Shown piece by piece: positions 56,784-59,196 of a stretch of DNA of 64,000 nt. The notes below the pieces were generated by a model. That model had not been told where the DNA came from, did not search any database, and saw only the letters and a program-made list of their open reading frames with translations. The position numbers and the translations under genes were made by a program. Each line of letters starts with the position of its first letter. Within the stretch, counting starts at the first letter, position 1. This stretch comes from Biomaibacter acetigenes (GTDB taxonomy: Bacteria > Bacillota > Thermosediminibacteria > Thermosediminibacterales > Tepidanaerobacteraceae): positions 2,480,001 through 2,544,000 of the forward strand of contig NZ_CP033169.1 in the NCBI RefSeq assembly GCF_003691585.1. The letters are read 5' to 3'.

Positions 56784-57239
56784 ATGCATGAGAGAAACTT
56801 TTTTACCTTTACGGAATACATGAAAAAAGAAGACCAGCTTCTCAGCGCCGCCATGGAAGACTATGTGGAGATGATATACAGGCTGTCCAGAGAAACGGGC
56901 TTTATCAGGATAAACGAGCTTGCATCGGCCCTGAACATAAAGCCCCCTTCAGCCACAAAAATGGTACAAAAGCTAGCTGAACTTAAGCTCTTAAACTACG
57001 AAAAATACAATATTATAACCCTGGAACCCAAAGGGGCCAGGCTGGGCAGGGCCTTACTGAAAAGGCACACTACCCTGGAGGAATTTCTCAAACTGCTGGG
57101 GGTACCCAGGACCATCCTACTGGATGAGGTGGAAAAAATAGAGCATACCATAAGCCCCGGCACAGTGAAAAAAATTGAATACCTGGTAAAGTATTTAAAA
57201 AATCACCAGGAAATTCTGGAAGATATATTTAAAAAATAA
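56784..57239 (+). CDS. mntR: DtxR/MntR-family metalloregulator
   Basis: A 151-residue regulator. The N-terminal winged helix (MEDYVEMIYRLS, NELASALNIKPPSATKMVQKL) has the DtxR metal-site Asp in EDY. The dimerisation domain carries RHTTLEEFLKLLGV and VEKIEHTISPG, supplying the Glu and His ligands. With bound Mn2+ it should repress mntH. The ATG at 56784 fits AAGGCGG 9 bases upstream better than the earlier GTG at 56775. Confidence 0.85.
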   Translation: MHERNFFTFTEYMKKEDQLLSAAMEDYVEMIYRLSRETGFIRINELASALNIKPPSATKMVQKLAELKLLNYEKYNIITLEPKGARLGRALLKRHTTLEEFLKLLGVPRTILLDEVEKIEHTISPGTVKKIEYLVKYLKNHQEILEDIFKK

Positions 57240-57245
57240 AGCATA

Positions 57246-57274
57246 TTTACAAAATACTCGATAATTGGTATGAT
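57246..57274 (+). promoter_or_regulatory. Promoter of the actin-like/bactofilin operon
   Basis: TTTACA, 17-base spacer, TATGAT: a good housekeeping promoter, about 150 bases upstream of the actin-like gene. Confidence 0.6.
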
Positions 57275-57280
57275 AGGAAT

Positions 57281-57298
57281 AAGGAGGATAAAATGTAG
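57281..57298 (+). promoter_or_regulatory. Ribosome site followed by a start-stop (ATG TAG)
   Basis: AAGGAGGATAAA precedes ATG at 57293-57295, and the next codon is TAG. It falls at the predicted 5' end of the transcript, 125 bases before the real gene. It would load a ribosome that terminates at once; it may be a leader control element or chance. Confidence 0.4.
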
Positions 57299-57423
57299 AT
57301 ATCTGTAAATATAGAGAGAAACCTTTTGCCGTCGCACTGTAATTCATGCTTTTACACCATACTGGGGGAATAAAAGGAGTTGGGGGCTATTGTTAATAAT
57401 CAAATTTAAAAGGAGGTTCGACA

Positions 57424-58464
57424 ATGGCACAATTGATCGGCATCGATGTCGGGTATGGTTTTGTAAAGGTTACTGACGGCGAGGCTGGTTATTCTTTTCC
57501 AAGCGTCGTGGGCGAAGGCCATACAAAGCCCACATTCAGCACGAGAATGGGCCAATTCTCGGCAATCGACCATCTCAAAGTGGGCATAGGCAAAAGGATC
57601 TATTTTGTGGGAAAAGCCGCCATCAGACATTCCAAATTCGTTTACCGCGACCTATCCTATAACCGTTCCGTGGGAGAAGACTTTGAAATCCTTTTTTTCA
57701 GCGCCCTGAGCTTATTTTCCGGCGGCGCTTCTACCGAATTCAACGTGGTCACGGGCCTTCCCGTCGAAAGGATGCACATGGCGGAAAATCTCGTCAGAAG
57801 GATCAAAGGCGAACGCACCATAACTCTTTACAGGGACGGAAACAGCCGGGATATCCAGTTAAATGTCAGGGATGTGGAGATCGTGCCTCAGCCTCTCGGA
57901 ACTTACTGGTCCCAGTTTTCCGGCCTCTGGGGCCAGGAGGCGGAATCCCTGCCCGAAGGCCGCATTGGAGTAGTAGATATAGGTTTCAGAACTACGGACC
58001 TTGCCGCCATAGAGGACTCCGAATACATCCCAGAAAAAAGCAAGTCGCTATCGGTAGGCCTGGCCACCGCGTACAGCGAGATAGGCCTGAGCCTTGCTTC
58101 TCAATACGGACTGGAAAAGGAAAGCTATGCCCTGGACGGGATAGTCATAAAGCGCAAAATCAATGTGGCGGGAGAATCTATCGACATCACGGATATTGTC
58201 AACGATGCCTTTGAAAAACTGGCCACCAACATCCTGGTGGAAATCAACTCTCAGTGGAGGGTATCGGATTTCGACAGCATTATAATAAGCGGAGGCGGTG
58301 GACATGCCATAAGCCAGTACCTGCTGCCCCAGCTTTCTCAGGCAAAACTTGTCTCCGACCCCATAACAGCCAATTGCCGCGGATACCTGGCCTGGGCCAG
58401 CCGGCTGTGGAATCCTCCATCCCGCGTCGGGAAGTCACAGGAAGAGTATATAGCGCAGCCTTAG
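57424..58464 (+). CDS. Actin-like ATPase (ParM/StbA family)
   Basis: A 346-residue actin-fold protein with phosphate-1 motif GIDVGYGFVK at the N-terminus, phosphate-2 motif GVVDIGFRTTDL near residue 182 and adenosine motif SGGGGHAISQYL near 284. It should form ATP-dependent filaments. AAAGGAGG precedes the ATG. No plasmid replication or centromere gene is nearby. A bactofilin gene follows after 11 bases, so a chromosomal cytoskeletal role, for example in cell shape or positioning, is the best inference. Confidence 0.85.
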   Translation: MAQLIGIDVGYGFVKVTDGEAGYSFPSVVGEGHTKPTFSTRMGQFSAIDHLKVGIGKRIYFVGKAAIRHSKFVYRDLSYNRSVGEDFEILFFSALSLFSGGASTEFNVVTGLPVERMHMAENLVRRIKGERTITLYRDGNSRDIQLNVRDVEIVPQPLGTYWSQFSGLWGQEAESLPEGRIGVVDIGFRTTDLAAIEDSEYIPEKSKSLSVGLATAYSEIGLSLASQYGLEKESYALDGIVIKRKINVAGESIDITDIVNDAFEKLATNILVEINSQWRVSDFDSIIISGGGGHAISQYLLPQLSQAKLVSDPITANCRGYLAWASRLWNPPSRVGKSQEEYIAQP

Positions 58465-58475
58465 GGTGGTATGAT

Positions 58476-59123
58476 TTGAGCAGAAATATATTAGAATTAT
58501 TCAACAATCTCCTGAATCCGGAAGCCCAACCCAGGGAAAGCTGCGGCCATATGGAAATCAGCGGAGCCTTCACCGGGGATATCTGCAATGGAATGAACGT
58601 ATTCGTCGCCCCTTCGGGTTATATAAAAGGCAGCATAAAAGCCAGAACGCTGGTAATCGCCGGAAAGGTCCATGGAAATGTCGAAGCTTACAGCCTGGTC
58701 ATTCACTCTTCCGGCGAGCTGGTATACAACAAACTGGTCTATAGGGAATTGCTGGTGGAAGAAGGAGGCGTAATGATCTGCGCAAATGATGCCGCCGACG
58801 CTCACGGGATGCCTGCAATATCCCGGGCGCCGGCATCCGCAGTGTCAGAAACGAATATGCCGAATTCTCAACCATTGCCACAGCCGGTGATTCATAAATC
58901 GACAGCGGAAGAAACTCAGCCGCAAACGCCGGATATGGAAGAGACTCCACCAGGAATACCGGCGGTGGGAGAAACTCCGGCCCGGGTACCGGTAGTGAAA
59001 GAATTACCTCAAACGTATACGGCACCGCAAGCATCAGTGCCTATACCACAGGCTTCATCGTTTCCGGCAACATCTCACACCACCGCTTCCAGCAAAGAAG
59101 TGCATTTTCACAGCAGTTTTTAA
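58476..59123 (+). CDS. Bactofilin-like polymer-forming protein with proline-rich tail
   Basis: A 215-residue protein. Residues about 20-105 form the right-handed beta-helix repeat of bactofilins (ISGAFTGDICNGMNVFVAPSG, GSIKARTLVIAGKVHGNVEA, in sections). The tail is rich in Pro, Glu and Thr with repeated ETPP/ETPA units and ends in HFHSSF. The TTG start at 58476 has GGGTGG upstream; a longer reading frame reaching into the actin-like gene has no ribosome site. Bactofilins polymerise without nucleotide; pairing with an actin-like ATPase suggests they act together. Confidence 0.78.
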   Translation: MSRNILELFNNLLNPEAQPRESCGHMEISGAFTGDICNGMNVFVAPSGYIKGSIKARTLVIAGKVHGNVEAYSLVIHSSGELVYNKLVYRELLVEEGGVMICANDAADAHGMPAISRAPASAVSETNMPNSQPLPQPVIHKSTAEETQPQTPDMEETPPGIPAVGETPARVPVVKELPQTYTAPQASVPIPQASSFPATSHTTASSKEVHFHSSF

Positions 59124-59160
59124 AGCCGCTGAGCTGTGCAGACCCACAGCAGCGGCTTTT
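59124..59160 (+). terminator. Terminator of the cytoskeletal operon
   Basis: AGCCGCTG/CAGCGGCT eight-base arms with an 18-base loop, followed by TTTTCTTTC; it starts directly at the stop codon of the bactofilin gene. Confidence 0.75.
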
Positions 59161-59196
59161 CTTTCATGTCCTTTAAATTAGAAAATTGCAGTTAAG

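Follow-up and report, generated by a model that had tools for sequence, protein, structure and literature searches.

The chromosome of Biomaibacter acetigenes encodes a ParM-type actin-like ATPase (ALP) and a bactofilin side by side in one operon, and the pairing recurs within a single ALP clade whose main-clade partner bactofilins, with one exception, end in the same short peptide. Both filament families are known, and their conserved, apparently peptide-linked combination is undescribed: in the open-licence literature searched we found no description of a bactofilin paired with a ParM or actin homologue in an operon. The same pair occurs in many families of the Bacillota as well as in Halorhodospira, which suggests a two-filament cytoskeleton not described so far, with the bactofilin standing in for the customary DNA-binding partner.

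Organization of the operon and its two products

The two genes lie in the 64,000-nucleotide stretch of DNA analyzed here (the window) and are separated by 11 nt (Table 1). The initial annotation had described them as a tight two-gene operon of an ALP and a bactofilin with its own promoter and its own terminator, and both its coordinates and this anatomy proved correct. The promoter-like site is sigma-A-like with an extended −10 element, and the block around it is near-identical at the loci L004, L005 and L006 and partly so at L041, despite differing upstream genes. A sporulation-sigma promoter was also considered, and the sigma-A-like site was the better fit as judged by eye. The untranslated leader that follows is possibly a regulatory RNA or a protein-binding leader; its blocks GCCGTCGCAC, GCTGGGGGA and GGGGGC are retained among family members. 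A riboswitch was rejected, as the leader matched no Rfam family at threshold and a consensus fold of four sequences showed little covariation. The strong terminator (59122-59159) folds with −22.4 kcal/mol and a z-score of −3.96.

The mechanically called ORF of the bactofilin gene opens at 58254, inside the ALP gene. The real start is likely the TTG at 58476, preceded by a Shine-Dalgarno sequence and retained in three of the closest relatives (L033-L035).

Table 1. Features of the operon; positions are those of the window.
Feature	Position	Strand	Basis
Promoter block, TTTACA-17-TATGAT, TG before −10	57238..57280	+	Site 57246-57274 and conservation
Conserved untranslated leader with Shine-Dalgarno AAAGGAGG	57281..57423	+	Four-member alignment
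ParM-type actin-like ATPase (ALP), 346 aa, intact	57424..58464	+	Pfam, PDB relatives, conserved residues
Shine-Dalgarno AGGGTGG, overlaps ALP stop	58463..58469	+	Sequence
Partner bactofilin, TTG start, 215 aa, long Pro-rich C-terminal tail	58476..59123	+	Pfam, orthologue model
N-terminal amphipathic segment RNILELFNNLL, candidate membrane anchor	58482..58514	+	Hydrophobic moment 0.75
C-terminal motif codons, F-H-S-S-F	59106..59120	+	Conservation vs controls; model
Intrinsic terminator, stem 59122-59131/59150-59159, then T-rich tract	59122..59165	+	Folding

The ALP belongs to the ParM / bacterial actin-like protein family. It matches the Pfam families ALP_N (PF17989, 121.5 bits) and MreB-like_C (PF21522, 65.4 bits), both above cut-off, and its closest solved relative is the ParM of pCBH (E 2.9e-24), with Dh-cParM1 and CorM as further relatives in the PDB. 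The residues D8, G10, K15, Q156, D185, G187 and G290-G293 are invariant in nine orthologues and form what we take, from knowledge of the family, to be the nucleotide site and the actin motifs. An AlphaFold model of the orthologue from L041, not of the window protein itself, has the ParM fold, and the top Foldseek matches of the L041 chain were pCBH ParM, Ta0583, Dh-cParM1 and CorM. Against the NCBIfam model of FcmB (NF052678) the ALP scored 39.9 bits at a cut-off of 300, which places it outside that family.

The partner is a bactofilin. The Pfam model PF04519 matches residues 22-100 with 52.9 bits at a cut-off of 27.9, covering profile positions 15-93 of 98. The L041 partner was modeled as all-beta, with a β-helix core at a pLDDT of 93-98, and its top Foldseek match was the Thermus bactofilin 6RIA (probability 1.00, target TM 0.70), with a statistically weak E of only 0.09. 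The canonical membrane-targeting N-terminus resembling MFSKKKK, which is common and not universal in the family (consensus: PMC12448750), was not found in the window partner; this begins with MSRNILELFNNLL and carries an amphipathic segment instead. The segment is a candidate membrane anchor judging from its sequence and is present in some of the orthologues, not in all, while the partners of L051-L053 have MFGR-like N-termini. As the genome of Biomaibacter acetigenes also encodes two MreB-family proteins and one canonical bactofilin elsewhere, the pair is additional to the MreB/bactofilin set of the cell.

Recurrence of the pair and its genomic surroundings

Loci were collected by a search of 101 relatives, a peptide-pattern scan of genome contigs and a scan of 398 genomes of the phylum, and the bactofilin ORFs at these loci were recognized by an iterated HMM. 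Two peptide patterns seeded the contig scan, which may overlook members that have diverged; the genomes are mostly metagenome-assembled. In the phylum scan 13 out of 13 high-scoring loci (L092-L104), from 13 genomes and 10 families, have a bactofilin adjoining the ALP. A tree of 92 ALPs places 34 of them in one clade (SH-aLRT 100, stem 1.05). Within this clade 32 out of 34 ALPs have an adjacent bactofilin compared to 0 out of 58 outside it; adjacency by chance was rejected on these counts, and the adjacency label requires 2 changes on the tree compared to 26.5 in shuffles. Moorella ALPs found in this analysis were placed outside the clade.

The members of a pair are always encoded on the same strand, with the bactofilin downstream of the ALP except in Halorhodospira. 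In two species of this gammaproteobacterial genus (ALP identity 44%) the only bactofilin of the genome lies upstream of the ALP. It clusters with canonical bactofilins, so that one ALP clade is linked to two bactofilin kinds. L042 and L055 hold clade ALPs without an adjoining bactofilin, and the sole bactofilin left in their genomes is a canonical one that lacks the motif described below; since the two are sisters inside the clade, a single loss of the bactofilin explains both. In L055 the sporulation gene ytrH lies directly 3′ of the ALP (L055:7093-7428). A sister group of chromosomal ALPs with about 35% identity (L060-L076, L105-L118) mostly lacks both a bactofilin and an obvious ParR-like neighbor and thus consists of orphan ALPs; one of its loci, from a Symbiobacterium assembly, holds three tandem ALP paralogues and no bactofilin (L060:19-3600). 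In Tepidanaerobacter sp. GT38 the ALP is split into two overlapping ORFs by a frameshift or a sequencing error (L047:5920-7013).

A ParM relative raises the question of plasmid partition. The locus lies on a single complete chromosomal contig of 3.40 Mb, and the genes around it have housekeeping functions; among them are those of MntH and MntR as a pair, a PHP phosphoesterase, PFOR, a GalU-like protein and an amidase-like protein. No small RHH-like ORF that could encode a ParR adaptor adjoins the pair, which is flanked by MntR upstream and has only the bactofilin downstream of the ALP. No direct or inverted repeats of at least 10 nt, as expected of parC, occur within 57230-57440, and downstream of the operon the only repeats are the inverted repeat of the terminator and one imperfect two-copy repeat. 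The nearest plasmid and phage matches of the ALP are at most about 29% identical, no copy of the ALP clade was found on plasmids or viral contigs, the one relative on a viral contig being 29% identical, and the bactofilin core has no match on plasmids. With adaptor, centromere and plasmid features all absent, the operon falls outside the ParCMR type II DNA-partition systems. We attach next to no probability to the idea that it is a system of this type, relict or active, which an integrated plasmid brought in and which adjoins the bactofilin by chance: the ALP is a relative of ParM, and its distant relatives L119 and L121 adjoin short ParR/RHH-like ORFs (judged by eye), but the housekeeping surroundings, the missing ParR-like ORF and parC-like repeats, the low identity of the plasmid and phage matches and the adjacency of a bactofilin to nearly all clade members argue against it. 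The initial annotation had noted that plasmid genes are absent nearby and had suggested a genome survey for the same pair; the former is borne out by these results, and the survey finds the pair well beyond near relatives, in several Bacillota families and in Gammaproteobacteria.

Clustering of the neighbors revealed that flanking genes other than the bactofilin are rarely common beyond near relatives. Recurrent exceptions are an M23 peptidase and genes of sensor kinases and response regulators. The peptidase adjoins the pair in 7 loci, which belong to three separate regions of the tree and include Halorhodospira; it is found neither in the locus of the window nor in most others. A large AAA-GAF-histidine-kinase-receiver-Hpt protein (L043:1-5094) and an OmpR-type response regulator (L036:5070-5780) precede the pair at some ten loci.

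The C-terminal peptide of the partner bactofilins

Partner bactofilins of the main clade terminate in F-x-x-[STVC]-[FYIV]-COOH in 27 out of 28 cases, compared to 0 out of 31 control bactofilins of the same phylum. Fisher's test yields p 6e-16 for this difference; relatedness is ignored in it, and the value overstates independence because the clade members are related. The sole exception (L077) has the motif with one extra residue. The motif is retained although the tail that separates it from the core can be as short as 46 or as long as 174 residues. Its phenylalanine at position −5 is invariant across 26 aligned partners, whose alignment has no more than six invariant positions in all. The terminal motif is absent from the early branches, namely the Symbiobacteriaceae-like L054, L056, L057 and L104 and the Halorhodospira loci L058 and L059. 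Tandem second bactofilins likewise lack it; these lie 3′ of the pair in L048 (7839-8177), L049 (6977-7309) and L037 (8898-9200), in the last case with an M23 peptidase in between.

Binding motifs usually have this form, a disordered tail with a conserved peptide at its tip, and the invariance of the peptide and its restriction to the partners suggest that it has a binding partner. We infer from the modeling below that this may be the ALP, which the peptide would grip. Since the ALP stop and the bactofilin share one frame in some loci, the natural read-through of both L041 proteins could be folded with AlphaFold as a single, artificially fused chain (alignment A5, 41 rows). In this chain the cores of ALP and bactofilin were confidently predicted and linker and tail remained below 50, while the last four residues reached a pLDDT of 81 and formed a strand at residues 479-482. 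If the L041 bactofilin was folded alone, on unchanged bactofilin rows, its terminal residues averaged a pLDDT of 55 without a strand, and the core strands were nearly unchanged. The motif is thus predicted to become ordered as a strand only with the ALP in the same chain, which we regard as supportive; the formation of the strand fits a docking of the peptide on the ALP. That the two filament proteins might form a composite cytoskeleton had been suggested in the initial annotation, and the invariant peptide of the partner bactofilins strengthens this idea.

Potential mechanism and relation to known systems

We somewhat favor the view that the operon encodes a two-filament module, composed of a captured ParM-type ALP and a bactofilin scaffold that serves as its adaptor, is bound to it via the C-terminal peptide and has a role at the envelope. 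A ParM-type ATPase would have been captured by the chromosome and parted from its ParR/parC cargo system, with a bactofilin in the place of ParR as adaptor; the distant ALPs L119 and L121 have the short ParR/RHH-like ORFs instead. Polymerized through its β-helix core, the bactofilin would form a static scaffold that probably lies on the membrane, and the disordered tail with F-x-x-S-[FY]-COOH at its end would grip the ALP. As each tail carries the peptide, such a polymer would display many ALP-binding peptides and might nucleate, cap or tether ALP filaments, provided that the ALP polymerizes as well, at one place of the envelope. The output would most likely be the positioning or regulation of cell-wall remodeling: a module acting on the cell envelope is probable from the M23 links described above together with the known bactofilin-M23 module (PMC10945521). 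Whether all this amounts to an undescribed hybrid cytoskeleton, in which a bactofilin polymer replaced ParR and provides a static scaffold at the membrane where its peptide nucleates, caps or anchors the dynamic filaments of the captured actin, we consider an evenly balanced question.

Other relations between the two proteins are conceivable. ParR and arcadin-2 each attach to their actin at its hydrophobic groove, arcadin-2 by a C-terminal peptide with which it depolymerizes crenactin (PMC5173319). The tail motif and the linkage of the genes match this precedent, and the bactofilin tail might accordingly sequester monomers or depolymerize the ALP, the scaffold then setting where ALP filaments cannot form. 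We regard this as unlikely, if worth considering, as a polymeric scaffold with many peptides resembles a nucleator or tether more than a sequesterer. Alternatively the ALP could act upstream, as an ATP-driven filament or switch which moves or remodels the scaffold, and this scaffold would recruit M23 hydrolases and shape the cell. The peptidase at 7 loci speaks for such an order, and so does Halorhodospira, where the ALP is appended to a pair of M23 peptidase and canonical-type bactofilin. However, most loci including that of the window have no M23 gene, and the linkage of bactofilin and M23 genes, known as a morphogenetic module, is common (226 species, PMC10945521), so that the peptidase may accompany the bactofilin alone; this order of events appears quite improbable to us. 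Finally, an operon structure is no proof of contact, and ytrH following the ALP in L055 might hint at two proteins that are merely co-transcribed and serve one process, in the envelope or in sporulation, without touching each other. The invariant, partner-specific tail peptide and its predicted ALP-dependent ordering render this very unlikely.

The favored two-filament module can be set beside several described systems. Chromosomal ParM relatives with new roles have precedents in FcmB/FcmC (PMC12645912) and in the cParMs (PMC12270681). In filamentous cyanobacteria FcmB/FcmC represents a captured ParM which became a membrane-bound morphogenetic filament and is placed by an adaptor (mSphere 2025, PMC12645912). 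It shares with our pair the chromosomal ParM-derived protein, the two-gene operon with a downstream partner and the lack of a DNA-partition role; its adaptor FcmC, needed for membrane placement, is however annotated as ParR-like, whereas the partner here is a bactofilin. CorM/CorR of Anabaena (PDB 9RMI) likewise combines a ParM-kind filament protein, found at rank 9 of the structural matches, with a named partner, but this partner is CorR and the title of the PDB entry, on which the comparison is based, names no bactofilin. Dh-cParM1 and Cb-cParM have the ParM fold and are encoded on Bacillota chromosomes (JBC 2025, PMC12270681), yet they are paired with RHH ParR-like genes or with none, and the main text mentions no bactofilins. 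With BacA-LmdC (eLife 2024, PMC10945521) the pair has in common the bactofilin and, in some loci including Halorhodospira, the M23 neighbor; the described module contains no actin-like ATPase, and the control bactofilins tested here do not have the F-x-x-S-[FY] tail. In its predicted way of working the pair resembles crenactin/arcadin-2 and ParM/ParR (PMC5173319), where the actin-like protein is bound by a peptide that its co-encoded partner carries, although those partners are not bactofilins.

Dynamic ATP-driven filaments and static nucleotide-free filaments are usually separate subjects of study in bacteria. If the proposed module is real it would provide a direct example of control exerted by one bacterial filament system over a second, and the short peptide offers a ready-made test of the contact. 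It would also represent a second route, besides FcmBC, from a plasmid-segregating actin to a protein of cell structure.
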